A program made the position numbers and the translations under genes. From a virus, in the IMG/VR virus record IMGVR_UViG_3300021960_000137, positions 1 through 46,090 of that record: a stretch of DNA of 46,090 nt. The stretch is one strand, 5' to 3'. The notes under the pieces are model-generated. The model worked only from the letters and a program-made list of their open reading frames with translations. It was not told the origin of the DNA and did no database searches. This document shows, piece by piece, positions 24,160-39,446 of this stretch (position 1 is its first letter; each line of letters opens with the position of its first letter).

Positions 24160-27100
24160 ATGTTAGAATATACCGTTAACGGCGAGCTTTATAATGTTCC
24201 CGAAGATTTAGAAAATAAATTCTTAGAAAAATATCCCAACGCTGTCAAGGTAGAAACTAGTCAGCCGGGAAAGATACCACCGCAGGTTCCGGGTGCGCCT
24301 GTGGAGACAACTGCAGCACCCGATATGGCTTCCAAATCGGAAGATACTTCATTGGAGTTACAAGAAATAAATAACGAAGAAAAAAGAAAACTTCCTTTTC
24401 TTGTAAGAAACGAATTATCAACAAGTGGTTTACCTTTTACAAGAGAAAATGTAGATTCTGCTTTAGCTAAACATAAAGCTAGAACAGAACGACCTATATC
24501 CGAAGCTATCAAAGAAGACGTTGACAAAGCTAAAAAAGATATTAATATTGCCAAGCAAAGCTTTTCTAACATCGTAAGTAATTTTTATAATGAAGATTTA
24601 GTAGAAGACGATCCTTTTGTAGCAGCTTTATCTTCTAACATGCCAATGTTACAGGGCCAAGCTAGGTTTTTTACGTCTCCAAGATTAAAAAGATTTTATA
24701 CTAGTATATCTTACGGAACCTTAGAAATGTTGGATAACTTAGGATTTGACTTAGACAAATCAAAAGCAGAAGTATCCAAAGAATTTTTAGAAGCTGAAAA
24801 AAGAACAAAGCAAGTTGTGGGTTTGACAGATGTAAAAGGCCCAGCAACTCTTTTAGCTGCTATAACTGGCGCGGGTTCAGAAGTTGGGTTTTCTATAGCA
24901 ACAGGCTTGGCAAGTGGAGGATATTTACCAATGGCTGAAATGATAGGTGGTATGGTAACTAACTATAATGTAGAGAAAGCCAAGTCTAAATATAAAGACT
25001 TATCTGAAGAAGATGCTGTAGAGCAATTAATAAAAGATAAAGACACTGATTTTTGGTTACCCACTACATTAGCTGTTCCTGCGGCATTAGCTGAAAGATA
25101 TGCTTTAAAAGGAACAACCAAATTTTTAACTAAGAATATAGCTTCTTCTGGCAAAAAAGAAATAGCAAAAAGTATTTTAATAAACTCTAATAAAGAAGGT
25201 GGAACAGAGTGGATTCAAGGAGCTTTAGAAACAGCTACATCATCTCTTGGTGCTAACTATGATCTAGAAATTGAAAGTGTAATAAACGGCGTTTCTGTGC
25301 CAACTAAGGTATTAAAATCTGCTCAAGATGCATTTGATTTTGCTTTTAGCAAGCAAGGTTTAGAAACTTATTTGCAAGGTCTTGTTGGTACTGGAGTTAT
25401 ATCATCTAGTAAAGCCGCTATTGACAAACTTGGTCCTGATGCTTATAGAGCATTAGCAACCACTAGATATGTTATGGACGAGGGTAAAGTTGAAAAACTT
25501 ACTGACGAAATAGCTGATCTTATAGAAAAAAAGAACACTGCTACTAATCCAGAAATGATTAAAATTTTTGAAGAGCAGATACAACAAAAAGAGCAAGAAT
25601 TAAAAGGTCAGGTTATTAATCAAGCTGGTTTTTTTGATGCTTTTGAAGAAGAAGATTACGACGAAATAAAAGATGCGAGTAAACTGTCTAGAGCACATGT
25701 TGAAAAAGTAAATGAACTTAGACAAGATTTAAATGACGGCATTATAGATGAGTCAGAATATAATGAACTCTATAATAATTATAAAGACAAATACAAGCAA
25801 GCTTTAAATAGAATAAAAAACGTAGTAGACAAAGCAAAAGAAAATATATCTCAAAAGAATATAGATATATCAAATAAAAACGAAGAGTTATTCGGTATAA
25901 TAACAAACCCAGAATCAAAGCCATCTCAAATAGATAGAGCAAGAAATGAAATTGCTTTAAATAACATGGGGCTTGTAAATAACCTTATTAATAGCAAATT
26001 TAATCCAGCCACCGCAGAAGCCTCTGGTTTTACCAGAGACATGTTTGAAAGTGCTGTTTATGAAGAATATTCTAAGCTAATAAATACCTATAATCCAGAA
26101 AGCGGCGTTCCATTTGGTGCATATTTAAAACAAAACTTACCAAAAAGACTTCCAAGGATATTTGAACAAGGTACAGAAAAGGCTGCTGATGGAGGTTTTG
26201 TATTTAAAGAAGACGTTTCTGAAAGAAGAGATATAATGGCAGAAGAGTCAGATATAGAAGTTGTTAAGCAAGAAGCTTCTAAATCTATGACCAAAGATCT
26301 TTCTATGCCAGCTGATTTAGTTTCTGAAATAGAAACTGGCGTTGCAAGTGTATTAGCCACAAAGCTTCCGCCTGTATCAGATCCAAAGTTTGTAAAAGAA
26401 TTATCTGAAGCTTTTAAAAACAAGTTTACAGAAATAGTAAAAGAACAATTTGGTAAAAAGAAAGAAGAATTTAGGCAATATCTTATAGATAATTTTGACA
26501 CCTTGTTTGATCAAATACCTCAAGAGGCTTTTAATAAAAGACTTCCTGGAATGTTTGAGGCTGTTACAGATGAAACTGGTAGACAAGTTAGAGAAAGAAC
26601 CGCTGTAGGTAAGGGTGTTTTTAAGAAAGCACAAATGACGCCTGAGCAGTTTGCCGATTATTTTACAGGCGAAGACGTTTATGCTTCATTAGCTTCTAAT
26701 AGAAAAGTTAAGCTTGCTGAAATTGTTGCTCAAGAACTTGGCAAAGACGCTACAGCTAAAGTTATTTTAAATCCAGAAGTAGCAACAAGATTTAGACAAA
26801 CTCAAGAATTATTAGGGCAAGAAGTTCCTGGAGGATTTGAAAGATCTATAGCGTTGGCTATTAAGAGACTAGATCAATTATCTGAAAATTTAGAAAAATT
26901 TAGAGAAGGAAAATTATTTAGTGGTCCTCTTGGTATGGCCACTTTTATTGTAGAGGTTTTTGCTAAAACACTGTCAAAACTGCTAAAAAGAGGCATGGGC
27001 TTTAATAAAGCAGTAGACGCAGCAGCGCAAAAAACAGTTAACGATCTTGGTATTGAATCTTTATTTGACAAAATAACTAGTGTTTTTAAAAGTATATTTA

Positions 27101-30100
27101 AAAAACCAGAGGATGCTACCGAAGAAAACGCTGAAAAAGCAGTAAACGCTGTAACAGATGTTCTTGATAAAGCATTAAAAGAAAAACTACCTGTAATTGT
27201 TTCTAATTTTAATAAAAGTTTAGAAAACCTTAGCGTAGAACAAAAAATAGAAAAATTAAAAATATTCTACGACAACGTTATAAAGCCATTAAAAGAAACG
27301 ACTACTAAAAGTATAGTTGATTTTACTGATGCAGATGCAACGTTAAATTGGATGCTTGAAAATATACCTAATATAAAAGATAAAAATATACAATATAAGA
27401 CAGAAGGTTCTGGTAGTGGTAAGTCAATCGTCTACATTACTAATAATATAAGTAAAAAATTAAGCACCTCTCCTCTTGGGCCAAAAACTAGAGATACTAT
27501 AAATAAAAAAGGCAGCGCTAAAAATATCTTAGATTACTTGTATTCTAAAACAGCGGCTAGAGATATAGGTGTTGAATTAAAAAATAAAAGCAACATACAA
27601 GTAATAAGTGATAGAACAGATAAAAACATAAACTCTTTAACGGTTTTTATTACAGATATGATTGAATCTGGCCGAATAGATGAGTTATTATTAATTCTTA
27701 GACTTCAAAAAGAATCATCAATTTCTCCTTTAAGACTTTCCGCTAGATTAAAATATATACAATCAGATTTTGATTCATCTTTAGAAGACAAAAGTACTGA
27801 ATCTATAAAACAAGGAACAGGATGGACATATGAGCATGTGACAACAACGGAGACTACGTATCAAGCGCTTAAAGAAGAAATACTGGCTGGTAGAACAGAA
27901 AAAATTAGAGAAATACTTGAAAAAGGCGTGGCTGCTTATATTTCTACTAAAATAGCAAATCAAAAAATAAACAAAACAGATTACAAGCAATCTAATGGCC
28001 CTAATTTTAATATACTTACAGATGATCCACTAGAAAGACTAACTAGATTTGATATCAAAGTTGAGCCTATAGAAAACAAAATAAAAATCAAAGATCCTGT
28101 ATCAAATAAAGAAACAACGGTTTCAGACGCAAGATCACTTCGCCCACAACAAATGATTGAAGCAAAAACTGGTGGGCAAATAAAAGCCACACAAGTTATT
28201 ACTAAATCTGAAGCTAAAGCACTAGAAAGAACAAGAAAGAAGTTTTTCAGGGGTATTATTTCTCCTGGCGCAGATGACGCGCATGGACTTGTTCAAGATT
28301 TCTATAGAAAAGGAAAATTAGGAGAAGAAGATCACACTTGGTTTAAAGAAAATTTCTTTGATCTGTTTGACGACGCTTCTATAGCAATGAATAAAAACAC
28401 GATTGCTAAACAACGTCATTACGAAAACATAAGAAAAAAGCACAAGCAAACTTTCAAAACCTTAAAAGAAAAAGTCATGGGTCCATTTGATAATGACATG
28501 ATTTTAAGGGTATACTTGTATACTAAAGCTGGTGTGACTGCTGAGCAGTTAGGATTATCTCAAAGTCAAGTTAACGACATGATGATGTATGTTAATGACA
28601 ATACTGATCTTCTTGATTTAGCCAATGACTTAAGACAGTTAAATAGTGGCGAAGAATTTTGGATTGTACCTGAAGACCCTAAAAACTTTACAGCTGGTAG
28701 ACTAGCTAACGATATAAGTGAAATATTAAACAAGAAAGATAGACAAAGATTTTTCGAAAAGTTTAATGAAGCTAAAGACGCTATATTCAGTGATGATTTC
28801 ATGAATAAAGTAGAGGCTGTTTATGGTAAAGAATTTAGAAACGCGCTGGGCGATGCTCTGTACAGAATGGAAACTGGTAGAAGCAGAAGTTCTGGCGTTG
28901 ATCCACAAGTTGGCGCGCTATGGAACTGGTTTAGAGGTTCTGTCGGTGTTACGATGTTCTTCCATACTAGATCTGCAATACTACAAACTATATCGTTTTC
29001 AAACTATATAGATTTAGAAAACAACAATCTTATAGCCGCATCGAAAGCTTTTGCAGATCAACGTCAATTCTGGGAAGACTTTATGTTCTTAATGAAAAGT
29101 GAGTATTTAGCCCAAAGAAGAGGTGGTCTTTCTACAGAAATAAACATGCAAGATTTAGCCGATGATTTAAACGCAGGTGGAGCAGTCGGTACAAGATCTA
29201 TAATATCTAAGCTTTTACAAGTTGGTTTTTCATTTACCCAGGCTGGTGATGCATTTGCTATATCTTTTGGCGGTGCTTCTTATTATAGAAATCAAGTTAA
29301 CGCCTACTTAAAACAAGGTCTTACAGAAGAACAAGCTCAAGAAAAAGCATTTAGAGATTTTGTTAGAAAAACAGAAGAATCTCAACAATCTTCAAGACCA
29401 GACAGGCTGTCTAAGCAGCAAGTAAGTATGTTTGGAAAGTTATTTTTAGCTTTTCAAAACATAACAGGTCAAATGACGCGTATACAGACAAAAGAAATAA
29501 AAGACGTTCTAGCTGGTAGAGGGAATAAATATCAAAAATTATCTAGGGTTGCTTATTATTTCACTATGCAGAACATAATGTTCTCTGTGTTACAAAATGC
29601 AATATTTGCGTTTATGTTCCCTGACGATGAGGAAGAAGAAGAATTATTAAAAACTAAAACTCAACGAGTAATTAATAACTCTTTAGACACTATATTAAGA
29701 GGTACGGGTGTTTATGGCGCCGTAGTTGCTATGGTTAAAAATGCAACTATGGAATTTATAGAGCAAGAGCGTAGAAGCTCTGAAGGCAAGGGTAGAGCCG
29801 ATCATATGTATACTATGATAGAAATAGCCAATGTTTCTGCACCAATAGGAATTAAAGCTAGAAAAATAGGTGCAATGATAGACTCTTATAGATACAACAA
29901 AGGTGTTCATGAAAGAATGGGTGCAGATATTGATAATCCAGCACTAGACATTATAGCCAATGGAGTTTCTGTAGGTGCCAACATTCCAGCTGATAGGATT
30001 TTAAATAAAATAAGAAATATAAAAGCAGCTCATGACGAGCAAACAGAGACTCTTCATAAAATATTATTATTAGCTGGTTGGAATACGTGGGACTTAGGAG

Positions 30101-30225
30101 TCAGTGGTCAAAGAGAAAAAGCAGCTGAAGTAAAAAAACAAATAAGATCAGAAAAGTCTAAAACTAAAAAAGCTAAAAAATTAGAAGGTTTGTCTGAAAA
30201 AGAAAAGCTAAGCATAGGTTTTTAA
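24160..30225 (+). CDS. Giant ejected virion protein (polyvalent, gp16-like slot), 2021 aa
   Basis: It begins MLEYTVNGELYNVPEDLENK, a short module common at starts of ejected phage proteins. Residues ~230-270 contain Gly/Ala-rich membrane-active stretches (TLLAAITGAGSEVGFSIATG). Residues ~587-680 look like a sigma-70 region-2 segment (NNMGLVNNLI, VYEEYSKLINTYNPESG, FGAYLKQNLPKRL). Long helical parts follow. Residues ~1570-1900 (VGALWNWFRGSVGVTMFFH, RSAILQTISFSNYI, FGKLFLAFQNITGQMTRI, YYFTMQNIMFSVLQNAIFAFM) resemble the membrane-embedded end of large polyvalent proteins (LPD38-like). No transglycosylase motif is seen. It probably travels with the DNA and spans the cell envelope during entry. 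Confidence 0.78.
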   Translation: MLEYTVNGELYNVPEDLENKFLEKYPNAVKVETSQPGKIPPQVPGAPVETTAAPDMASKSEDTSLELQEINNEEKRKLPFLVRNELSTSGLPFTRENVDSALAKHKARTERPISEAIKEDVDKAKKDINIAKQSFSNIVSNFYNEDLVEDDPFVAALSSNMPMLQGQARFFTSPRLKRFYTSISYGTLEMLDNLGFDLDKSKAEVSKEFLEAEKRTKQVVGLTDVKGPATLLAAITGAGSEVGFSIATGLASGGYLPMAEMIGGMVTNYNVEKAKSKYKDLSEEDAVEQLIKDKDTDFWLPTTLAVPAALAERYALKGTTKFLTKNIASSGKKEIAKSILINSNKEGGTEWIQGALETATSSLGANYDLEIESVINGVSVPTKVLKSAQDAFDFAFSKQGLETYLQGLVGTGVISSSKAAIDKLGPDAYRALATTRYVMDEGKVEKLTDEIADLIEKKNTATNPEMIKIFEEQIQQKEQELKGQVINQAGFFDAFEEEDYDEIKDASKLSRAHVEKVNELRQDLNDGIIDESEYNELYNNYKDKYKQALNRIKNVVDKAKENISQKNIDISNKNEELFGIITNPESKPSQIDRARNEIALNNMGLVNNLINSKFNPATAEASGFTRDMFESAVYEEYSKLINTYNPESGVPFGAYLKQNLPKRLPRIFEQGTEKAADGGFVFKEDVSERRDIMAEESDIEVVKQEASKSMTKDLSMPADLVSEIETGVASVLATKLPPVSDPKFVKELSEAFKNKFTEIVKEQFGKKKEEFRQYLIDNFDTLFDQIPQEAFNKRLPGMFEAVTDETGRQVRERTAVGKGVFKKAQMTPEQFADYFTGEDVYASLASNRKVKLAEIVAQELGKDATAKVILNPEVATRFRQTQELLGQEVPGGFERSIALAIKRLDQLSENLEKFREGKLFSGPLGMATFIVEVFAKTLSKLLKRGMGFNKAVDAAAQKTVNDLGIESLFDKITSVFKSIFKKPEDATEENAEKAVNAVTDVLDKALKEKLPVIVSNFNKSLENLSVEQKIEKLKIFYDNVIKPLKETTTKSIVDFTDADATLNWMLENIPNIKDKNIQYKTEGSGSGKSIVYITNNISKKLSTSPLGPKTRDTINKKGSAKNILDYLYSKTAARDIGVELKNKSNIQVISDRTDKNINSLTVFITDMIESGRIDELLLILRLQKESSISPLRLSARLKYIQSDFDSSLEDKSTESIKQGTGWTYEHVTTTETTYQALKEEILAGRTEKIREILEKGVAAYISTKIANQKINKTDYKQSNGPNFNILTDDPLERLTRFDIKVEPIENKIKIKDPVSNKETTVSDARSLRPQQMIEAKTGGQIKATQVITKSEAKALERTRKKFFRGIISPGADDAHGLVQDFYRKGKLGEEDHTWFKENFFDLFDDASIAMNKNTIAKQRHYENIRKKHKQTFKTLKEKVMGPFDNDMILRVYLYTKAGVTAEQLGLSQSQVNDMMMYVNDNTDLLDLANDLRQLNSGEEFWIVPEDPKNFTAGRLANDISEILNKKDRQRFFEKFNEAKDAIFSDDFMNKVEAVYGKEFRNALGDALYRMETGRSRSSGVDPQVGALWNWFRGSVGVTMFFHTRSAILQTISFSNYIDLENNNLIAASKAFADQRQFWEDFMFLMKSEYLAQRRGGLSTEINMQDLADDLNAGGAVGTRSIISKLLQVGFSFTQAGDAFAISFGGASYYRNQVNAYLKQGLTEEQAQEKAFRDFVRKTEESQQSSRPDRLSKQQVSMFGKLFLAFQNITGQMTRIQTKEIKDVLAGRGNKYQKLSRVAYYFTMQNIMFSVLQNAIFAFMFPDDEEEEELLKTKTQRVINNSLDTILRGTGVYGAVVAMVKNATMEFIEQERRSSEGKGRADHMYTMIEIANVSAPIGIKARKIGAMIDSYRYNKGVHERMGADIDNPALDIIANGVSVGANIPADRILNKIRNIKAAHDEQTETLHKILLLAGWNTWDLGVSGQREKAAEVKKQIRSEKSKTKKAKKLEGLSEKEKLSIGF

Positions 30226-30243: not shown

Positions 30244-30399
30244 ATGGATTTACAAGATTTAAAAATATATTTACTTAATGGCTTTTCTTTAGTCATGTCT
30301 TTTACGGCTATAGAAATGACCTTAAAAATATTACTGTTAGTAGTCTCTATAGGCTATACAATACATAAGTGGTATGAAATGGCTAATAAGCGTAAGTAG
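30244..30399 (+). CDS. Small membrane peptide, possible holin, 51 aa
   Basis: ATG at 30244 lies shortly after the giant gene. The peptide starts MDLQDLKIYLLNGFSLVMS, with one weaker hydrophobic stretch, and has a clear transmembrane segment (LKILLLVVSIGYTIHKW) followed by a basic end, MANKRK. Short peptides with an E-x-x-LKIxLLxVSIGYT pattern recur in marine phages and are often considered holin-like. It overlaps the next gene by 26 bases in another frame. Confidence 0.6.
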   Translation: MDLQDLKIYLLNGFSLVMSFTAIEMTLKILLLVVSIGYTIHKWYEMANKRK

Positions 30400-30829
30400 T
30401 TTATTATTAAGTCTTTGTGTTTATTCCCAAGAAATAACCATTGGCAAGATTAGCAATAAAATAGTACATGGAGATTTAATTGGAAATAGAAACCTGGAAT
30501 TTGGTATTAAGAGCATATTAGAAGAGCTCGTACAGGATCAAGGTTATGATCTAGTTGAAAATAGTGAATCGATCCTAGAGGTCGATTTATTATATTTTGA
30601 CGTTAAAAGAACCAGTACCAACGCGGCTGTTTTCACAAAAACGAACAACCAAGTTGAGATAATAGCTGAAGGTCGGTTCAATGGCAAGAAAGTAAAAGTA
30701 AAAGCTACAGCCGACAATATTATTACGTCTACAATCATATTAAATAATCAAGGAACGTTCAATCAGCAGAGCGTTTCAACAGCTTTAAAAAGATTATGTA
30801 ATCAGATTATAGACAAACTAAAACTATGA
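30374..30829 (+). CDS. Exported protein, possible short CsgG/LptE-like domain
   Basis: A 151-residue protein with a flavobacterial-style signal peptide (MKWLISVSSLLLSLCVYSQ, cut before Glu20). The mature part shows a strand (EITIGKISNKI), a helix (LEFGIKSILEELVQDQGYDLV), two strands (SILEVDLLYFDVKRT, VEIIAEGRFNGKKVKVKATA) and a final helix (ALKRLCNQIIDKLKL). This alpha/beta order is like the periplasmic domain shared by CsgG, YajG and LptE-type proteins. It is only half the length of the CsgG-like protein at 33198. It starts inside the preceding small gene and overlaps the next by 4 bases. Role inferred: periplasmic partner of the exported-protein block. Confidence 0.6.
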   Translation: MKWLISVSSLLLSLCVYSQEITIGKISNKIVHGDLIGNRNLEFGIKSILEELVQDQGYDLVENSESILEVDLLYFDVKRTSTNAAVFTKTNNQVEIIAEGRFNGKKVKVKATADNIITSTIILNNQGTFNQQSVSTALKRLCNQIIDKLKL

Positions 30830-32541
30830 AAAAACTATTGTTTCTACTTTTGTTCCCAGTATTAACATTTGGACAAAGTTTTAACCTAAAACATGAAATA
30901 CTAGAACAAGGACCATTTGTAGTAGGAGACACAATAACAATAAAATACCAATTAATAGATAACACTAACTCCGTCACAGCAAGGCTACTTCAGTTTGATA
31001 TAGGATGGGATTTAGATAAACTAACTAGATTAGGAACACCTAACTGGCAACTTACAACCCCAGACAATAAGAGTTTTACTCATAATTATTGGTCTGGATA
31101 TACATATGTTAGCGCGCCTGGTTATGACTGGAGTGAACTAACTCAACAGCATGAAAATGGATGGACATATACTGGAGGAGGAAATGAAGGCGTAGCTAGA
31201 TTTACAATCCAAAGTGTAGACGATATTGGTCCTGAATTATTTTTACAGCAGTTTACTATAAAAGATATCACTGGTACTAACGCTACAGACTACACTGACG
31301 CTGTTAGATTTAACTGGGCGTATCTTATAGATTCAAATAACGTTAATACTTATGACGTGTTTCCAGATCCATCAAGAGAATTGGATCTTAATGCTAGCAA
31401 CTCTACCCCAGCTGGCACAGTAACGTTTCAGTTACAAACTCCAAACGCAGAAAACATATCAGATTACATGATTGTTATTGAAACCTTAGAGCAATACCAA
31501 TCAATGCAAGAAGGCACTCAACAATCATATAGTTATATTCAAGGTAATTTCAATGCTTCTGCCCAGTTTATAACAACAGAACTAAAACAAGATACACCTT
31601 ATATAGTAAATGTTTTTATAGCTGGTACGTATAATCAAGAAAATCAAACAAACGTATATCCTCAATGGCTAGATGATGTTGTAACTGTTTCTGATGTAAT
31701 GCAGACATTTAAGCAAGCTATAGGCACTGAGCCAGATGGTACAGGAAATGTTTTTCAATACAACATACAAAAACGCCTAGCAAACGTAGATCAGCAAGGT
31801 CCTAACGATCCTGTAGATTTTAAAGACAGTTATGCTTTACTAGCGCACATAGCTGGCGTATTAGATAATGCTGCGGATCAAAACAACAGTGAGGCTCAGG
31901 AATTTTATCCTATAACTTCGTTTGCAAACGGGTCAATGAACACATCTGGTTTCTTTGACACATTTGGTACACCTATAAATTCAGAAGAAGAATGGTTAGC
32001 ATCTAGAACGTTTACCTTAGAAAATGATCAACCTATCACATTTAATTTTGCACATGGATTAATGGGTGATGCAGATCTTTCTCATTCGACAACGCCAAAT
32101 TTAAATGCAGACACTGAAATATCAGCTTTAACTAAATCAAGAAGGATGCCAAATATACTTATGGCTGCACCACAAGAAACAATTGATTTAGATATTGTAT
32201 CAGAACTTGTAAACGGCGAGGTAGTACTAGAAATAAACTTAACAAAAGAAGATTTGGCTGGCATGCAATTTAACATAAGCTATGACAAGTCTATTCTAAT
32301 GTTTAAAGATATAATTTTTGACACTGGAAATACTATGACAAATTTTGCCAAACACTTTGACGACGGCAGAATAAATCTTGGTACAATAAATATAAAAGAG
32401 GAAAACGTTAAAACAGGCAAACCATTCAAACTCGTGTTTGTTCCGAAAGTATCAATTCAAAACACAGCTGGTCTTGTAACATTTAAAGTTACTGACGCTG
32501 TAAAACACAATGGAACAAAAGTAAACCTAAACATACAATAA
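30826..32541 (+). CDS. Secreted cohesin-like protein
   Basis: 571 residues with signal peptide MKKLLFLLLFPVLTFG cut before Gln17. Residues ~25-190 look like a cohesin/carbohydrate-binding-like beta sandwich (FVVGDTITIKYQLID, RLLQFDIGWDLDKL). A central part has a Fn3-like piece (GTVTFQLQTP) and a dockerin-like helical pair near 285-350 (VTVSDVMQTFKQAIG, VDFKDSYALLAHIAGV). The C-terminal ~120 residues are a second cohesin-like domain (GEVVLEINLTKEDLAGMQFN, ISYDKSILMFKDI, INLGTINIKEEN). A cohesin and a dockerin-like module in one protein could self-assemble outside the cell. It sits in a chain of exported proteins ending in the CsgG-like pore. Domain calls are by pattern. Confidence 0.65.
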   Translation: MKKLLFLLLFPVLTFGQSFNLKHEILEQGPFVVGDTITIKYQLIDNTNSVTARLLQFDIGWDLDKLTRLGTPNWQLTTPDNKSFTHNYWSGYTYVSAPGYDWSELTQQHENGWTYTGGGNEGVARFTIQSVDDIGPELFLQQFTIKDITGTNATDYTDAVRFNWAYLIDSNNVNTYDVFPDPSRELDLNASNSTPAGTVTFQLQTPNAENISDYMIVIETLEQYQSMQEGTQQSYSYIQGNFNASAQFITTELKQDTPYIVNVFIAGTYNQENQTNVYPQWLDDVVTVSDVMQTFKQAIGTEPDGTGNVFQYNIQKRLANVDQQGPNDPVDFKDSYALLAHIAGVLDNAADQNNSEAQEFYPITSFANGSMNTSGFFDTFGTPINSEEEWLASRTFTLENDQPITFNFAHGLMGDADLSHSTTPNLNADTEISALTKSRRMPNILMAAPQETIDLDIVSELVNGEVVLEINLTKEDLAGMQFNISYDKSILMFKDIIFDTGNTMTNFAKHFDDGRINLGTINIKEENVKTGKPFKLVFVPKVSIQNTAGLVTFKVTDAVKHNGTKVNLNIQ

Positions 32542-32542
32542 T

Positions 32543-32920
32543 ATGAAAAAACATTTGCTATACACGTTGTTTGCCTTAATTGCTATAACCTCTTGTGCTA
32601 AAGACGAGTTTTACATTGGCGATATTTATAATCTTGTACCAGAATCTTTAGTTATTAAAGAAAACGCTGGATTAAAACTTGAGAACTATATTGTAAAAGA
32701 TCAAGTAAGCGTCAATGTTAAACTACCTTCTCAAGGCGTTTATAGAATTAGAATAGAAGATATTTCTGGCAAAGTTGTTTCTCAAGAAAAAATAACCGCG
32801 GCACAAGGAGATAACATACTTAAAGTGTACGTGAATGCTTTGCCCAAGTCTTCTTATACGTTAAAAGTTACAACAGAGTTTAATCAAAAAATAGGTGATC
32901 AAATATTCTCAAAAATATAA
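32543..32920 (+). CDS. Lipoprotein with T9SS C-terminal-domain-like fold
   Basis: 125 residues. The N-terminus MKKHLLYTLFALIAITSCAK carries lipobox ITSC, with Cys18 as the lipid site. From residue ~50 the sequence VSVNVKLPSQGVYRIRIED, then ISGKVVSQEKITAAQGDN, ILKVYVNALPKSSYTLKVTT and a final QIFSKI follows the type A sorting domain of Bacteroidetes type IX secretion: G-x-Y-x-x-x-I-x-D-x-x-G-K, then G-x-N, then L-P-x-x-Y-x-L-x-V, then a Lys near the end. A lipobox and a sorting domain are rarely combined, so it may be just an Ig-like periplasmic domain. It lies one base after the cohesin-like gene. Confidence 0.68.
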   Translation: MKKHLLYTLFALIAITSCAKDEFYIGDIYNLVPESLVIKENAGLKLENYIVKDQVSVNVKLPSQGVYRIRIEDISGKVVSQEKITAAQGDNILKVYVNALPKSSYTLKVTTEFNQKIGDQIFSKI

Positions 32921-32923
32921 ATT

Positions 32924-33217
32924 ATGAGCGAAGAAAGTGGCGGGGGATTTTTAACCCAAATAAAAAATCAAGTAATAGCTGGTGTTGGTGTAGTGTTGAC
33001 TACTCTTTCAACCGTTTTTATAGATGAAATAAAATCTTTAGTTGGTATAAAAGATGAGGTAGAAGAAGTTGCGACACAAGAACAAGTTGCGCAACCAGAG
33101 ATTATTATTAATATACCTGAACAAAAGAAAGACACTGTAGTTAAAAAGGTTTATGTAGAACCTAAAAAAGAAAAAACAGAAACTGAAAAACGCAAAGATG
33201 AAGGGCTTGATTGGTAA
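32924..33217 (+). CDS. Single-span membrane protein with charged tail
   Basis: 97 residues. A hydrophobic helix (VIAGVGVVLTTLSTVFI, residues ~18-34) follows a short polar start. The rest is charged and flexible: acidic first (DEVEEVATQEQVAQPE), then Pro/Lys/Glu-rich (VYVEPKKEKTETEKRKDEGLDW), like a periplasm-spanning linker. There is no cleavable signal. It overlaps the CsgG-like gene start by 20 bases, so it is coupled to it. It might link the inner membrane to the outer-membrane pore, much as TonB-type tails do, but no TonB domain is present. Confidence 0.6.
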   Translation: MSEESGGGFLTQIKNQVIAGVGVVLTTLSTVFIDEIKSLVGIKDEVEEVATQEQVAQPEIIINIPEQKKDTVVKKVYVEPKKEKTETEKRKDEGLDW

Positions 33218-33923
33218 ATTTCTATTTTTATGGTTGGCTTCAATAGGAGCTCTCTATGGACAGGTTTTAGGCAAAACCGTAACAGAAGATTACACTGCAG
33301 ATTTTGAATCAAGAGAATCAATCTGGGACATCCCAGAATACAACGGGGATCCAACGACCGTGGCTTTGTTGAGTATCGGTGTTAATGACGAAGTATTAAG
33401 TCAATACCCTGAGCTCGGAGACTACAGAGTTGGACTTGGACTTACAAATATTACTACAGCATTTTTAGAAGAAACATTTCGTTTTGAATTTGTAGAAACA
33501 AAAGATGAAATAAAAGACCGTATGGTTAAGCAGTATAAAGCTAGCCAACGAGGCTTAACGGCTAATGAGATCAACATCGTAGGTAATATTATGCTTGCGA
33601 AGTATTTTTGTTATATAGAAGTGTATGATTTTTCTATATCAGAAGATGAAACACTTAATTTAAAAGATGGTGTAAAGAATACGCTTGTAACAAGATTAGG
33701 TTTGCAAGTTAAAATGGTTGATGCTGAGACTGGTTTATATATGACTGGCTCAGGATTAGGAAAAGCAACCACAACAAGAGAGCTAACATTACTTAATGAT
33801 GAAAACCTAGAAGACGTTAAATTTAATCAATCGTCAATAGGTACGTCTACAAAAAAGGCATTAGAAACTGCAGTTGCGAAAGTTGTAAAACGCATGATTC
33901 GCAAAGGCGTATTTGATCACTAA
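33198..33923 (+). CDS. csgG-like: CsgG-like outer-membrane curli-secretion pore protein
   Basis: 241 residues with signal peptide (GKFLFLWLASIGALYGQ, cut near Gln22). The mature sequence follows the CsgG/HfaB pattern: TVALLSIGVNDEVLSQYPEL, YRVGLGLTNITTAFLEETFRF, KYFCYIEVYDFSISED, LGLQVKMVDAETGLYMTGSG, LGKATTTREL, and a final FNQSSIGTSTKKALETAVAK helix. In bacteria CsgG makes a nonameric beta-barrel channel that secretes curli subunits. No lipobox Cys is visible here, although CsgG is normally a lipoprotein. At about 220 mature residues it is a little shorter than CsgG (262). CsgA/B repeats, CsgE and CsgF were not found nearby. The family call is by pattern, moderately strong. Confidence 0.75.
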   Translation: MKGLIGKFLFLWLASIGALYGQVLGKTVTEDYTADFESRESIWDIPEYNGDPTTVALLSIGVNDEVLSQYPELGDYRVGLGLTNITTAFLEETFRFEFVETKDEIKDRMVKQYKASQRGLTANEINIVGNIMLAKYFCYIEVYDFSISEDETLNLKDGVKNTLVTRLGLQVKMVDAETGLYMTGSGLGKATTTRELTLLNDENLEDVKFNQSSIGTSTKKALETAVAKVVKRMIRKGVFDH

Positions 33924-35266
33924 TGAAATGGTGGTATACTTTATATTTATTTTTTCTATTTATTTTATCGGCGCACTCGCAATCTTTAGTTCAGACATTT
34001 GTAGATCGCTGCACTGGAGAAATAAAAACAATAGTCATACCGCTTGAAGGTTCTACAGTTGTGGTTTTTTACAACAGATCAAGATCGTTTACTTTTAACG
34101 ATGTAAGGTCTGGTGAATTACAGGCTTGGTTAGAAGAAACATATGCTTGGTGGCAATCATTATCACCTTGCTCTACAAATCAAGTCGCACAAACAGCAAC
34201 TCAAACAACTACACAAAATGCAACACAAAACACGGCCTCTACAGCGGCTAGTTCAGTTAGCCCGCCAACTCAAGGAACGAATACAACAAGTCAAAGCAGT
34301 GGTACAGCGACTCAAAGCGGTAATACTGAATCTAGCTCATCAGCAGGAACAGGGGAAACCTCTAACTCCGGTGGAAGCAACGATTCAGGAGGTGACGGAG
34401 GCAGCCAAGAGTCTCAGGGAGAAACCAGTGAAGGAGAAAGTCAAGAGGGGAACGATAGTTCAGGAGATGACTCCGAGTCAACAGAAGAAAGCTCAGAAGG
34501 AGAAGAAAGTGAGAATGAAGAGGATTCAAATGATGATGATGATGGAGAAGAATCTGAAGATGAAGAAGACAGTGGGTCGGGATCAAAAAAATCAAACCCT
34601 GTAATTGTAGCCGCTAACATAGCTACAATGTCTGCCTTAGATGGCTCTATAAACTTAGTAACAAATGTGGGCTTATCTCAAGCGAGTTTATCTGGTGATA
34701 CTAGTAATTCCTTGAATATTATGATATGGGATAACCTACAGCAATTTAATCTCAATATAGCCACTTCTTTTATGAATAAAGAACAACAGGTGATTATTAG
34801 AGATGGAAACAAAACAAAAACTACGGGTGGAAATGTAAAAAGCGTAGTTACTACATCATTAAACGCAATGTATTCATTTGGTACTTTGAATGCGGCTTTT
34901 GGAAAAAGCAAGGTTTATTTGATGAAAAATAACTTAGCGGCTGGTTGGGCTTCTAATATTATGGCGATGAAAATCCAAAAAGATTTTATGTTTATGCCAA
35001 CAATGATAGGGTTTGCTACTAAGCCTTATGTTTTTTACAAGTACACTGTTTCACCCATGCTGGCTACGGCTTTAAATCCAGTTATGTATTCTACGAGTAC
35101 AAAACAATTTACTTATAATACAAACGCTATGTTCATTATAGGTTCAAGTGGAAGTTTTAATCTTACTAAAAACTTTTATGTAAACTTAGGATTTAATATT
35201 ATAGAAAGTACGGCTAACCTACCTATGACATGGGCGGCAACTATAGGAAGCAGATTCCAATTTTAA
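33923..35266 (+). CDS. Exported protein with acidic linker and outer-membrane barrel-like C-terminus
   Basis: 447 residues. The signal peptide is MKWWYTLYLFFLFILSAHS, cut before Gln20. A small N-terminal domain with two Cys follows (FVDRCTGEIKTIVIPLEG, ELQAWLEETYAWW, LSPCS). A low-complexity linker (~90-225) shifts from Thr/Gln/Asn/Ser-rich to Glu/Asp/Ser-rich. The last ~220 residues alternate polar and hydrophobic residues in strand-length blocks (VTTSLNAMYSFGTLNAAFG, FNLTKNFYVNLGFNII, TWAATIGSRFQF) and end in Phe, the outer-membrane barrel signature. Start overlaps the CsgG-like stop (TAATG). It may be an outer-membrane partner of the pore, or possibly a surface-exclusion protein. Confidence 0.62.
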   Translation: MKWWYTLYLFFLFILSAHSQSLVQTFVDRCTGEIKTIVIPLEGSTVVVFYNRSRSFTFNDVRSGELQAWLEETYAWWQSLSPCSTNQVAQTATQTTTQNATQNTASTAASSVSPPTQGTNTTSQSSGTATQSGNTESSSSAGTGETSNSGGSNDSGGDGGSQESQGETSEGESQEGNDSSGDDSESTEESSEGEESENEEDSNDDDDGEESEDEEDSGSGSKKSNPVIVAANIATMSALDGSINLVTNVGLSQASLSGDTSNSLNIMIWDNLQQFNLNIATSFMNKEQQVIIRDGNKTKTTGGNVKSVVTTSLNAMYSFGTLNAAFGKSKVYLMKNNLAAGWASNIMAMKIQKDFMFMPTMIGFATKPYVFYKYTVSPMLATALNPVMYSTSTKQFTYNTNAMFIIGSSGSFNLTKNFYVNLGFNIIESTANLPMTWAATIGSRFQF

Positions 35267-35288: not shown

Positions 35289-35516
35289 ATGGCTTTTAAA
35301 GACATTTTTAAAGACGAAAACGAAATCAACGAAAAATCAGTTGTTGGTTTTGCTTCATTTGCAATTATGGTAATATTTGCTCTTGCAGATATTGTTACAG
35401 GATTTATTGGTAAAGATCTTGTGGTCCAAGAATTTATTTATAACAGTTTTGTTATAATTACGCTTGGATCTTTTGGTATTGGTGAAGCAGGTAAAATATT
35501 TGGTAAAAAAGAATAA
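35289..35516 (+). CDS. Holin candidate (two membrane helices)
   Basis: 75 residues with two hydrophobic segments: VVGFASFAIMVIFALADIVTGF (~18-39) and FIYNSFVIITLGSFGIGEAG (~48-67), a charged start (KDIFKDENEINEK) and a basic tail GKKE. It lies one base before the amidase, the usual holin position. The role is to permeabilise the inner membrane at lysis time and let the endolysin out. Identification is by size, topology and context; holins share little sequence. Confidence 0.75.
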   Translation: MAFKDIFKDENEINEKSVVGFASFAIMVIFALADIVTGFIGKDLVVQEFIYNSFVIITLGSFGIGEAGKIFGKKE

Positions 35517-35517
35517 T

Positions 35518-36012
35518 ATGGCATTTATAAAACCTAAAGGTATTATCGTACACTCAATGGCAGAATATTTAAAAATGCCTGAGGGTCCAATGGGAGCGCA
35601 TGACTTTTTAAAGTCTGTAAACCTATCAGTACATGGTTTCATTCATCCAAATGGAACTTATGAGAAAATGATTGAAACACCTAACAAAGCTGCACATGCT
35701 GGTAAATCTAAATGGGGTGATTTAGAAATGTTAAACGGGCATTTTCTAGGTTTTGAACTATTAGTGCCAGGTGAACATGACTTCTGTACGTTCTCAAAAG
35801 CTATTGAAACAGCTGGCACTTATACTCAAGCTCAGTTTGACAAAGCTGTTGAGGTATGCCAATGGTGGATTAAAGAGTATAATATTCCTGTAGAAAACGT
35901 AGTTAGACACTCAGACTGTTCTGGTGACGACGTAAGAGGTAAAGGTCAAGGTAAAACAGATCCAGGCTCTGCGTTTGATTGGGATGCTTTTAAAAAAGCT
36001 TTAGTAGCATAA
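35518..36012 (+). CDS. Endolysin: N-acetylmuramoyl-L-alanine amidase (amidase_2 type)
   Basis: The start chosen is ATG 35518, right after the holin-candidate stop; an upstream start at 35464 would lie inside that gene. It is 164 residues, similar in size to T7 lysozyme (151). Zinc ligands are visible: His12 in IIVHSM, His131 in VVRHSDCSG and Asp148 in KTDPGSAFDW. SVHGFIHPNGTYE and NKAAHAGKSKWG form the substrate groove, and FLGFELLVPGEHDF is the central strand and loop. It cuts the bond between muramic acid and the stem peptide. No signal peptide, so release depends on the holin. Confidence 0.93.
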   Translation: MAFIKPKGIIVHSMAEYLKMPEGPMGAHDFLKSVNLSVHGFIHPNGTYEKMIETPNKAAHAGKSKWGDLEMLNGHFLGFELLVPGEHDFCTFSKAIETAGTYTQAQFDKAVEVCQWWIKEYNIPVENVVRHSDCSGDDVRGKGQGKTDPGSAFDWDAFKKALVA

Positions 36013-36015
36013 AAC

Positions 36016-36354
36016 ATGAATAGAGCAAGTATTATATTGCTCTGTATTACGACTTTAGTTATATTTTTTATTTTAAAAGAACAACCTAAGCTTGATATAC
36101 AGAAGTATGAGGATCAGATCAATATGCTTCAATCTGAAATAAATCTATTAGAAACAGCTAATGATAGCTTAATAGTTAAAGCTGCTATTTTAAGTGAAAA
36201 AGTAACTGAGTATGATAATACTATAGAACAGCTTAATAATAAAATAGATGTTATACAAGATGAAACTAAAAAGAAACTTGATTCTATTGATCGTTATAAC
36301 AATGATCAGCTTCAAAAGTTTTTCGCAAATAGATACAAAGATACTATTAAGTGA
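36016..36354 (+). CDS. Inner-membrane spanin-like protein (i-spanin candidate)
   Basis: 112 residues. An N-terminal transmembrane helix (SIILLCITTLVIFFILK, residues ~5-21) is followed by a long periplasmic coiled coil (YEDQINMLQSEINLLETAND, KVTEYDNTIEQLNNKIDVIQD). This is Rz-type topology. It starts 3 bases after the amidase stop and overlaps the next gene by 95 bases in another frame, as Rz/Rz1 pairs do. Its role would be disrupting the outer membrane at the end of lysis. There is no sequence family to confirm it. Confidence 0.7.
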   Translation: MNRASIILLCITTLVIFFILKEQPKLDIQKYEDQINMLQSEINLLETANDSLIVKAAILSEKVTEYDNTIEQLNNKIDVIQDETKKKLDSIDRYNNDQLQKFFANRYKDTIK

Positions 36355-36670
36355 AAACGTAGCTAGACTTGTTGTAAAAGATCTAGTAACATATGATGGT
36401 CTTCTTGTACAGTATGATGTAACAAGGCAGCAAATAAAAACCCTTGAAGATAAATCATTGACGCTACAAGAGGTTATCGAAAACTTAAGGTTACAGATAG
36501 AAAATAGAAATCAAGTTATAAAGCAAAAAGACGAGCAAATACTGAACTACCAATCAATATCTGACGATCTTAAAAAAGCTTTAAAAAAAGAAAGAAGAAC
36601 TAAAAAGCTTTATAAAATAGGTTCGGCTATAGGCGTTTCACTGCTACTATCAAATATATTAACCAAATAA
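36260..36670 (+). CDS. Exported coiled-coil protein overlapping the spanin candidate
   Basis: The start chosen is ATG 36260, which gives a clear signal peptide MKLKRNLILLIVITMISFKSFSQ (cut before Gln23); a start at 36248 only adds four residues before it. The mature part is a coiled coil (LLVQYDVTRQQIKTLEDKS, ENLRLQIENRNQVIKQKD) ending in a short C-terminal hydrophobic segment (YKIGSAIGVSLLLSNIL) and Thr-Lys. It overlaps the i-spanin-like gene in the +1 relationship. The mature protein lacks Cys, so it is not an Rz1-type lipoprotein. It may be an unusual second spanin subunit with a C-terminal membrane anchor. It is the last gene before the convergent terminator. Confidence 0.65.
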   Translation: MKLKRNLILLIVITMISFKSFSQIDTKILLSENVARLVVKDLVTYDGLLVQYDVTRQQIKTLEDKSLTLQEVIENLRLQIENRNQVIKQKDEQILNYQSISDDLKKALKKERRTKKLYKIGSAIGVSLLLSNILTK

Positions 36671-36671
36671 A

Positions 36672-36705
36672 AAAGGGAGATCGAAAGATCCCCCTTTATT
36701 TTTTT
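36672..36705. terminator. Bidirectional terminator between late and early modules
   Basis: Stem AAAGGGAGATC / GATCCCCCTTT with one mismatch around a GAAA loop (36672-36697). A T run follows on the plus strand (36699-36705) and A runs lie on the left, which serve as T runs for the minus strand. It lies between convergent genes ending at 36670 and 36704. Confidence 0.85.
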
Positions 36706-38473
36706 ATCCGTCACATGATAAGCAATCCGGATCCATTGCCTTTGTAGCAATATCTCCTCTTAACACTGATTCGGTTCGCATGTAATACAACGTTTTAATT
36801 CCTTTTTTCCAAGCTTCCAAATGAACTTGATTTATCCATTTAGGCGTAGCCACAGAGGGAAACGCGAGATTCAAAGAAACAGACTGATCAACATACTGCT
36901 GGCGAATACCAGCTTGGTTAACGAGCTCGAGCTGATTTATCTCTTTGAATGTTTTAAATACGTCTTTTATTGTATCAAATCCATACTTCTCAATATCTTC
37001 AGCAGACTCAGATAGCTTTACAAGTTTACCTTGTACATATCCGTAATCTTCAAGCTCTGCAATATCTTGAACAGATCCTTTATCTTCTAATATCTTGTTC
37101 CAAGTCTCAGTGGTATTAATACCTATCTTTTTGAAGACTTTTTCTAACTCTTTATTTTTTCTAATAAATGTTCCTTTAGCAGACTGTTCTGTAAACACGT
37201 TTGCAGCCCAAGGTTCTATGCCCGGCGATACGTTTCCAGAAAGTTTTGAATTAGATACCGTGGGTGCAATAGCTCTAAGGTGTGTATTTCTAAACCCTGT
37301 ATCCCTACACCATAATGGTTCTCCATATACCTCAGCAAGGTCACGGGAAGCTCTCTCTGATTCAATTTTAAGTTGACTAAAAACGCGTCTTGTTTCAAAT
37401 TGTGCCTGCATACCCTCAAATGGTATTCCTTTTTGCTGTAAATAAGTGTGCCATCCCAGAACTCCCAAACCAAGAGCCCTTCCCTTTTCGGCACTACGCA
37501 CACTATTTTCAAAGCCTTTAAGCCCTTTCGCCCGCTGAATAAACTCTTCAAGTACGCCATCCAAAAACCAAATACTGTGGTATATAAGGTTAGTGTCTTT
37601 CCATTCATCATATTTAGCTATATTAACTGAACTAAGACAACATACAAAACTATGGTTTTCATCTGTATGTAGTGTTATCTCAGAACATATATTTGTCATA
37701 TGAACTTTAAGTCCGTTGTCTTTGTATGCTCTTGGATTACTTTTATTTGTATTTCCTTTAAAAAGGATATAAGGTTCTCCAGTTGCTTTACGTTTTTGTA
37801 ATAGCTTTCCCCATCGCGTCCTAGCATCAATATCTCCTTGTTCAAGTCTTCGCATAAACTTATCACCGACCACAGCGCACTGGTGGAGATTGAGCGACTG
37901 TCTATTAACGTCACCTTTTGGCTCTCTAATCTCAAGCCAGTCCAAGAAATCGGGGTGGTCAATATTGATATTAACTGATGCTGCTCCTCGTCGGACAGAT
38001 CCTTGATTAGTGGCAAGTATAGTTGAATCGTAAATCTTGCAAAACGGCACCACTCCGTCAGATGTTCCATTGTTTGTTATTTTAGCTCCGGCAGGACGAA
38101 TCATATTGATGCCTATACCAACTCCCCCACCGTGTTTAGCTAGTAGCATCATTTCTAAGTTTTTAGCACCAATCTCTTGAATACTATCACCTACATCAAT
38201 ACCAAAGCACGATATAGGTAATCCTCGATCAGTACCTGTATTTGAAAGAACTGGCGAAGCTAGATTTAGCCAGCCCTTCCATATATAGTCAAAAAATACT
38301 TCAGCAAGTTCCGGTTTGTACAACCTTCTAGCAACAGTTGACGCAACTCGCATATACGCATCTCTTGGGGTTTCCCATGGTAACAAGTAACCTCCTGTTA
38401 TTGTTTTTTTGTATACATCGGTATCGCCCCAAATAGGGTAATCCTCGCCTTTAATCCAATCGTTATTCCACAT
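36704..38473 (-). CDS. nrdA: Ribonucleotide reductase alpha subunit, class I, without ATP-cone
   Basis: Start chosen at ATG 38473, five bases downstream of the nrdB stop; a start at 38542 would run far into nrdB. It is 589 residues, against ~760 for bacterial NrdA, because the N-terminal ATP-cone (activity-control) domain is missing. Catalytic residues (numbered from this start): Cys89 in PISCFG, Asn261/Cys263/Glu265 in NICSEI, Cys278 in CCLSSVN, the radical-transfer Tyr pair in TLYYMRTES, and the C-terminal Cys pair in DCLSC. It reduces ribonucleoside diphosphates with NrdB and supplies dNTPs. Absence of the cone suggests it escapes dATP shut-off. Confidence 0.95.
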   Translation of the reverse strand: MWNNDWIKGEDYPIWGDTDVYKKTITGGYLLPWETPRDAYMRVASTVARRLYKPELAEVFFDYIWKGWLNLASPVLSNTGTDRGLPISCFGIDVGDSIQEIGAKNLEMMLLAKHGGGVGIGINMIRPAGAKITNNGTSDGVVPFCKIYDSTILATNQGSVRRGAASVNINIDHPDFLDWLEIREPKGDVNRQSLNLHQCAVVGDKFMRRLEQGDIDARTRWGKLLQKRKATGEPYILFKGNTNKSNPRAYKDNGLKVHMTNICSEITLHTDENHSFVCCLSSVNIAKYDEWKDTNLIYHSIWFLDGVLEEFIQRAKGLKGFENSVRSAEKGRALGLGVLGWHTYLQQKGIPFEGMQAQFETRRVFSQLKIESERASRDLAEVYGEPLWCRDTGFRNTHLRAIAPTVSNSKLSGNVSPGIEPWAANVFTEQSAKGTFIRKNKELEKVFKKIGINTTETWNKILEDKGSVQDIAELEDYGYVQGKLVKLSESAEDIEKYGFDTIKDVFKTFKEINQLELVNQAGIRQQYVDQSVSLNLAFPSVATPKWINQVHLEAWKKGIKTLYYMRTESVLRGDIATKAMDPDCLSCDG

Positions 38474-38477
38474 ATTT

Positions 38478-39446
38478 TTAAAATAAATCGTCCCAGTCTT
38501 CTCCTTCGTTTGCTTTAGAATAATCTGTAGGTCTAATAGCAAAAAAGTCAGTGTGTGTTACTCCTCCAGTTAAATGATAAAACCACTCAAGATTGTCTGC
38601 TGCTTTTGAGTCGTAATCAAAATAAGCATTTAGTTCTGTGTACCCAAGCTCAATAAGCTTTTCATTTAAACGTTTTTTAATAAACTGCTTAAGATCATAA
38701 GACTTGAGGTTTTCAATATCTCCCATCTCAAACATTTTGTCAATATAATTCATTTCTGCATCATGCATCGCGTCAGCAGCAGCAACTACGTCTTCTCTAC
38801 ACGCGCTCAATAAGTCTGGTTGCTCTTCACACATATGCCTAAATAATTGGCAACCCATCTTACTGTGTAAGCTTTCGTCTCTCACACTCCATTTCATTTG
38901 TTGACCAATACCTTTAAGAAGATTACGAAGCTGAAAACTATACAACACAGCGAACGCGCTATATAGAGAAACACCTTCTGCAAACGCAGAAAATATAGCT
39001 AAACTTTTACCAATACCAACACGGTCGTTGTTTTCACATGCTACAAGGTTTTCAAATCTTTCCATTGTTGCTGGATCATGTAAGAAAGCCTCAAAATCAT
39101 CAAGCCCAAGTGTTTCGTTTAAGTACGAGTAAGCTACAGCATGGATAGTTTCTTGACTACCAAACATCATAGCCATTTGTTGTATTTCGTGTTTAGGAAA
39201 CCAACTAACTACCTTTTGTGTCCAATAATCAGATACCGCACACTCTGTCTGCGCAAAACCAAGCAGTATATTACCAACTAAATTCTTTTCAGATTTATTT
39301 AATTTTTCGTTCCAGTCTTTAACATCACCAGACATTGGTATCTCAGTGTGCAACCAAAATGCCTGTGCTTGTTTTAGCCAACCTTCTGTATAATAAACTG
39401 GATACTCAAAAGGTTTATAGGCTACACGTTCATCAAATAATCCCAT
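38478..39446 (-). CDS. nrdB: Ribonucleotide reductase beta subunit, class I
   Basis: 322 residues. Di-metal ligands are visible: Glu68 (TECAVSD), Glu99 and His102 (QETIHAVAY), Glu157 (FAEGVSLY), and Glu191 and His194 (RDESLHS). The radical Tyr106 lies 7 residues after Glu99, as in class Ia proteins, so a tyrosyl radical is expected. The C-terminal DWDDLF is the tail that docks into NrdA. It lies upstream of nrdA in a minus-strand nucleotide-metabolism operon. Length is slightly below bacterial NrdB (~375), usual for phage versions. Confidence 0.95.
   Translation of the reverse strand: MGLFDERVAYKPFEYPVYYTEGWLKQAQAFWLHTEIPMSGDVKDWNEKLNKSEKNLVGNILLGFAQTECAVSDYWTQKVVSWFPKHEIQQMAMMFGSQETIHAVAYSYLNETLGLDDFEAFLHDPATMERFENLVACENNDRVGIGKSLAIFSAFAEGVSLYSAFAVLYSFQLRNLLKGIGQQMKWSVRDESLHSKMGCQLFRHMCEEQPDLLSACREDVVAAADAMHDAEMNYIDKMFEMGDIENLKSYDLKQFIKKRLNEKLIELGYTELNAYFDYDSKAADNLEWFYHLTGGVTHTDFFAIRPTDYSKANEGEDWDDLF

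Follow-up and report, generated by a model that had tools for sequence, protein, structure and literature searches.

Phage CsgG pores and phage cargo of the T9SS have each already been reported. A role in lysis has been proposed for the CsgGF of Methylophilales phage Melnitz (PMC9004378), and a sibling-capture idea has been put forward for pelagimyophages (PMC7029224); the modules of pelagiphages read as CsgF-CsgG-curlin-like, unlike the cassette described here. TARA_ERS488589_N000003, a T4-like marine Bacteroidetes virus, carries curli-like and surface-adhesion genes for which aggregation was proposed (PMC7198788). This is a single genome with annotated curli, for which no cohesin, dockerin or T9SS link was described (PMC7198788), and it may be a member of the module reported below. 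Cryophage, in turn, encodes proteins with a T9SS type A domain, one of them with PA14 (PMC7468147); this cargo consists of separate, variable genes, and neither CsgG nor curli is mentioned (PMC7468147). In the literature searched, we found no description of the linked module as a whole or of its alternation between T9SS tail and lipoprotein, none of a CsgG-fold protein outside the CsgG family or of cohesin/dockerin-like lectins in a phage module, and nothing relevant on cohesin in phages. The stretch of DNA analyzed here in its entirety (46,090 nt; hereafter, the window) comes from a virus contig of 46 kb on which terminase, portal and structural genes are present. It harbors a six-gene cassette which, with about even chances in our estimation, is a late surface-display (adhesin) module of Bacteroidota phages that uses host export routes, and not a curli secretion system.

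The cassette consists of six plus-strand open reading frames (30374-35266), designated g1 to g6 in order [Table 1], which form a tight array with successive junctions of a 4-nt overlap, a 1-nt gap, a 3-nt gap, a 20-nt overlap and a 1-nt overlap. Export features were found on all six products, namely a signal peptide on four of them, a lipoprotein signal on one and a single N-terminal span on another, and Gln is near-invariant within families at the predicted cleavage sites of the four signal peptides. The run of consecutive, touching or overlapping genes with export-type products that a preliminary description of this DNA had announced was thus borne out. On either side, the array is flanked by the gene for a 2021-aa protein, which closes the structural region, and by a lysis block made up of a putative two-span holin, an amidase and an overlapping spanin-like pair. 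The ribonucleotide reductase genes located beyond this block in the window adjoin the module in many relatives.

Table 1 Coordinates of the module, its neighbors and other features of the window.
Feature	Position	Strand	Description
Chaperonin gene	4069-5631		GroEL-type, phage-encoded (PHROG E 3e-137)
Upstream gene	24160-30225		2021-aa protein upstream of the module; PHROG unknown (E 2e-4), hardly any family match
g1	30374-30829	+	151 aa; Sec-exported, YajG/Lipoprotein_16 type, without lipobox
g2	30826-32541	+	571 aa; Sec-exported predicted surface protein
g2, parts	~32200-32493 (C-terminal cohesin)		Cohesin-like N-terminal part (by eye), dockerin-like middle, C-terminal cohesin
g3	32543-32920	+	125 aa; lipoprotein with C-A-K-D-E at the lipobox; mature part T9SS sorting-domain-like
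g4	32924-33217	+	97 aa; single N-terminal membrane span, flexible charged arm, C-terminal Trp
g5	33198-33923	+	241 aa; Sec-exported, CsgG-fold (predicted); Gln at predicted cleavage site, no lipobox Cys
g6	33923-35266	+	447 aa; N-terminal domain, linker, C-terminal barrel (~34601-35263)
g7	35289-35516	+	75 aa; two predicted spans, putative holin
g8	35518-36012	+	N-acetylmuramoyl-L-alanine amidase (endolysin); Pfam Amidase_2 E 3.7e-16, PHROG amidase E 5e-17
g9	36016-36354	+	N-terminal span and coiled coil, spanin-like inner-membrane protein; PHROG Rz-like spanin E 0.0034
g10	36248-36670	+	Signal peptide, coiled coil, hydrophobic C-terminal stretch; overlaps g9 as Rz1 overlaps Rz
Ribonucleotide reductase genes	36704-39446	-	Alpha and beta subunits, beside the lysis block

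Upon scanning IMG/VR with a g5 profile, at least 398 stretches were found to encode a relative, 80 of which were kept. Among the g5-anchored loci with enough flanking DNA, g1, g2, g4 and g6 were all present in 62 of 63, and in the reverse test anchored on g1 the partner genes were present in 59 of 59 loci, the two sets having many contigs in common. Because the module is kept in both sets, the six-gene array is not a product of chance, and the linkage presumed in the preliminary description proved tight when gene order was compared in relatives. Module-bearing contigs span ~5 kb to 178 kb. The isolated Flavobacterium phage immuto (160 kb) carries the module, and the only matches among 50,697 GenBank phage records were four Flavobacterium immuto records, in which the module genes are annotated as hypothetical except for one cohesin and one lectin name; no match was obtained by DNA similarity to GenBank phages. 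A bacterial origin of the module was considered and rejected, since, of 84,980 species genomes of bacteria and archaea, just two contained a relative, both times on a contig that looked phage-like by eye, with tail-collar-like, peptidoglycan-binding-type and topoisomerase-like neighbors. A CsgG gene was absent from both of these assemblies. With a mean pairwise identity of 0.72, g5 is the most conserved product, the partners ranging from 0.34 to 0.49 and g2 being the most divergent (0.34). Judged by these identities, the conservation of g5 would fit a core part of a machine, and the divergence of g2 a fast-changing, exposed protein.

The secreted protein g2, already described as cohesin-like, matched Pfam cohesin over residues 459-556 (24.4 bits, cut-off 24.1), and a Pfam cohesin was found in 14 of 25 g2 relatives. 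Where g3 is lacking, the C-terminal end of g2 is formed by a T9SS type A sorting domain (TIGR04183/PF18962) scoring above curated cut-offs, the domain exceeding the Pfam cut-off in g2 of the eight g3-less loci scanned. This sorting domain was not found in the g2 protein of the window. The g3 protein of the window, for its part, had sorting-domain scores of 18-24 bits (Por_Secre_tail, 23.6, below the cut-off of 27), and Por_Secre_tail was detected at E<0.01 in 13 of 27 g3 relatives. HHalign comparison of g3 with the sorting domains of g2 relatives yielded a probability of 91% (E 9e-7), against 0.7% for the control, and when an HMM built from the g2 sorting domains was run against all open reading frames, g3 was the only match beyond g2 itself. 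Such a sorting-domain-like end had been ascribed to this lipoprotein in the preliminary description. The lipobox Cys is kept in 65 of 65 distinct g3 relatives. The presence of g3 and that of the sorting domain were mutually exclusive in 76 of 76 loci (p 2e-12 in a Fisher test of the table, relatedness ignored), with g3 in 64, the sorting domain in 11 and a divergent g3-like lipoprotein in one; the apparent exception, L084, has such a divergent lipoprotein in the gap. As the g5 tree requires at least three changes between the g3 and T9SS-tail states, on well-supported branches, this exclusivity does not go back to one inherited event. To our knowledge, a lipoprotein with a sorting-domain-like fold has no precedent.

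The residues following the lipobox Cys of g3 are mostly [TA]-[KQ]-[DE]-[ED], with deviations in some relatives, and resemble the LES motif of the C-X-K-(D/E)2 or Q-A-(D/E)2 type (CAKDE in the window). They are close to K-(D/E)2, the minimal form of the lipoprotein export signal, which was described in Capnocytophaga and is common to the phylum (PMC5080379; Lauber 2016). As a delivery signal specific to Bacteroidota is present either on g2 or on its partner, host routes probably take g2 across the outer membrane. In contrast to Cryophage, the T9SS signal here resides on g2, or the lipoprotein g3 replaces it.

About eighteen loci encode a second g2-like protein. The g2 paralogues examined contain a dockerin-like region in common with g2, to which a C-type lectin, PA14/GLEYA or GEVED domain is joined in the majority; the module of the window has neither a second g2-like protein nor a lectin-bearing paralogue. 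A strict EF-loop motif was found in 39 of 91 distinct g2-type proteins, compared to 2.7 upon shuffling, and Dockerin_1 (PF00404) in two relatives only, where it was marginal (E 0.024 and 0.068). The exact EF-loop motif is absent from g2 of the window, whose Ca-binding loop is not intact. Immuto encodes a C-type lectin that bears a dockerin-like loop (gp13), a protein with another such loop and a start that is cohesin-like by eye (gp14), and a cohesin joined to a T9SS domain (gp15). As in the cellulosome, cohesin and dockerin-like parts are thus found on exported proteins; in contrast to the cellulosome, the cargo is of lectin rather than enzyme type, and the dockerin assignment is weak. Other exported products are encoded nearby: a secreted DNA/RNA non-specific endonuclease (Pfam E 2e-17) within or near the module in 24 loci (e.g., L018:9162-9770, L020 and, in immuto, L034:9935-10513) and, between g3 and g4 in some phages (L028:8845-9390, L017:8141-8635), a lipoprotein-like protein with a thrombospondin type 3-like end (E 3e-4 in L017, which was scanned).

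The position of the array beside lysis genes, as first described, was confirmed, holin-like and amidase genes adjoining it. Relatives of g7, which had no family match in Pfam or PHROGs, occur in 53 of 84 loci and in many of them adjoin or lie within the module; relatives of g9 occur in 13 of 84 loci, g8 to g10 being neighbors and g9 lying outside the module core. In L045, L049, L059 and others, holin-like and amidase genes are inserted between g4 and g5. The cassette might accordingly be read as a lysis module in which a CsgG-fold ring and the barrel permeabilize the outer membrane late in infection, with g4 or the cohesin protein aiding the breach, and the adjoining holin-like, amidase and spanin-like genes, their placement between g4 and g5 in several phages and the published proposal for phage CsgGF (PMC9004378) all speak for it. 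We nevertheless find it rather unlikely. Phages of the window type already own an amidase and a spanin-like pair beside the module, the adhesin domains and T9SS signals would have no evident role in lysis, and gene neighborhood suggests co-expression, not function. Sibling capture (PMC7029224) and aggregation (PMC7198788) suit the adhesin domains better than lysis does.

The preliminary description had further called g5 a CsgG-like protein, an assignment that held for the fold (Foldseek E 6e-7) and failed for family membership by sequence. An AlphaFold2 model of g5 (pLDDT 77.6) matched CsgG (4uv2) with an E-value of 6.4e-7, a probability of 1.00 and a TM of about 0.43-0.48, and the other best solved matches were PelC, HP0492, GNA1162 and FlgT. 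TM values were modest overall (0.3-0.5); the CsgG and PelC matches cover most of the chain, and a phage protein with the annotation CsgG ranks first among viral matches. In contrast, sequence searches of Pfam, PHROGs and the PDB with g5 returned no match, a Pfam scan of 17 g5 family members detected CsgG (PF03783) in none, and HHalign comparison of g5 with 11 CsgG sequences yielded a probability of 0.6%. Membership of g5 in the CsgG family was rejected upon failure of this profile-profile comparison, and likeness in fold alone was retained. As modeled, g5 is thus a predicted CsgG-fold protein outside the CsgG family by sequence. Like the CsgG of curli (type VIII) secretion, it is found near further exported proteins, in this case on a phage; its module partners differ, and no Pfam matches to CsgE, CsgF or curlin repeats were obtained among the module proteins scanned, in agreement with the absence of curli subunit repeats noted at the outset. 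The lipidated N-terminal Cys of CsgG is also absent, g5 of the window having instead a Gln that is invariant in the aligned family, although a Cys occurs near the g5 start in 14 loci. In CsgG, two beta-hairpins insert into the membrane and build a 36-strand barrel. Long strands were modeled in g5 at residues 136-155, 158-175 and 181-196, and in a rough hydrophobicity test against CsgG, which spoke neither for nor against a pore, the first hairpin was comparable and the putative second one more polar. By this rough measure, hairpin 1 could insert into a membrane, and hairpin 2 appears too polar to do so. A CsgG-like ring of g5 may be periplasmic, or may serve as the gate or anchor of a complex. 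The g5 fold likewise matches periplasmic proteins of the PelC, GNA1162, FlgT and YajG type, and g1 is YajG-like by sequence; unlike in the PelC/YajG-type cases, both types are here part of one phage module together with a barrel and a surface protein.

The last protein of the array, g6, had been predicted to end in a barrel, and its AlphaFold2 model indeed shows a 12-strand C-terminal outer-membrane barrel (blocks mostly at 80-94 pLDDT), preceded by an N-terminal domain with two invariant Cys residues and a disordered, Ser/Thr/Glu-rich linker. Foldseek matches were NanC, KdgM, FapF and OmpG. In FapF, the exporter of the Pseudomonas functional amyloid, an N-terminal domain and a flexible linker similarly precede a 12-strand C-terminal barrel, and a role in regulating the pore has been proposed for the periplasmic coiled-coil domain and the linker (PMC5557850). 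The likeness of g6 to FapF (TM(target) 0.46-0.58) is one of layout and fold only: the N-terminal domain of g6 has a mixed fold with Cys residues rather than consisting purely of coiled coil, no Fap subunits were seen, and the porins NanC and KdgM match g6 equally well or better. As to g4, a C-terminal Trp is present in 78 of 78 relatives (74 distinct sequences) and, in a protein otherwise changing fast, this invariance suggests a conserved docking pocket for it. Pfam PF03923 (YajG-type) was found in 17 of 18 g1 relatives, near the cut-off (best E 4e-6; 24 bits in the window, cut-off 25), Gln is invariant at the predicted g1 cleavage site, and a search of the PDB with a g1 profile returned chance PP2A matches only.

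Dedicated secretion, with a g5 ring acting as a CsgG-like outer-membrane pore for g2 or another product and g6 as an accessory pore, would agree with CsgG and PelC being the best fold matches of g5 over most of its chain and with the FapF-like layout of g6 (PMC5557850). It is unlikely in our judgment, because the export signals of g2 and g3 indicate host routes, g5 has no sequence link to CsgG, a more polar putative second hairpin and a cleavage site without lipobox, and no CsgE- or CsgF-like gene was recognized. The view of the CsgG-like protein as the exit channel of a product, put forward in the preliminary description, is not supported. Poorer still are the prospects of superinfection exclusion by a TraT-like envelope ring, in which the cohesin and lectin proteins would bind the host's own surface glycans. 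The TraT decamer is among the g5 fold matches, although weak (TM 0.22-0.23), surface-type proteins with lectin domains are encoded, and a similar suggestion was made for the T9SS cargo of Cryophage (PMC7468147); yet the fold match is common to many periplasmic lipoproteins, and late expression would act at the end of infection only. Finally, that these are virion or tail-associated proteins that merely look exported is highly improbable, the signal peptides, lipobox, T9SS domains and membrane barrel being at odds with cytoplasmic virion assembly even though the module lies directly 3' of the structural region.

According to the surface-display reading, which we favor, g2 would be carried outside the host cell by host routes during infection, as a scaffold or adhesin with cohesin and dockerin-like parts; certain phages would send a second g2-like protein, bearing a lectin, PA14/GLEYA or GEVED domain, to the surface as well. 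Two routes may be envisioned. In one, the T9SS sorting domain is on g2 itself; in the other, that of the window and most relatives, the surface-type lipoprotein g3 would supply the sorting-domain-like part in trans. On the periplasmic face of the outer membrane, g5 would form a CsgG/PelC-like ring, and g6 would be a barrel of the FapF type whose arm lies in the periplasm. From the inner membrane, g4 would act as a tether, docking by its C-terminal Trp on g5 or g6. Jointly, g5, g6 and g4 (and g1) might assemble, gate or anchor the surface complex. For g1, g4, g5 and g6, these display roles are guessed from the co-conservation of the genes. The expected outcome, with timing deduced from gene position, would be an adhesin coat on infected cells shortly before lysis, holding neighboring cells close or masking receptors. 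More specific, and doubtful in our opinion, is the proposal that a cellulosome-like cohesin-dockerin lectin coat, which dying Bacteroidota cells would be made to display through the host T9SS or the surface-lipoprotein pathway on the CsgG-fold ring and barrel, gathers fresh hosts before the burst.

The module occurs in hundreds of phage contigs and is almost absent among isolated-phage databases, which suggests that late remodeling of the host surface is a common strategy of phages that infect Bacteroidota, a group that ranks among the main bacteria in water. Because the isolated phage immuto (Flavobacterium sp. LMO8) has the module, the reason why CsgG-like genes occur in marine phages becomes directly testable. 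How Bacteroidota direct proteins to their surface can, in addition, be approached through the naturally occurring exchange of T9SS tail and surface-type lipoprotein.
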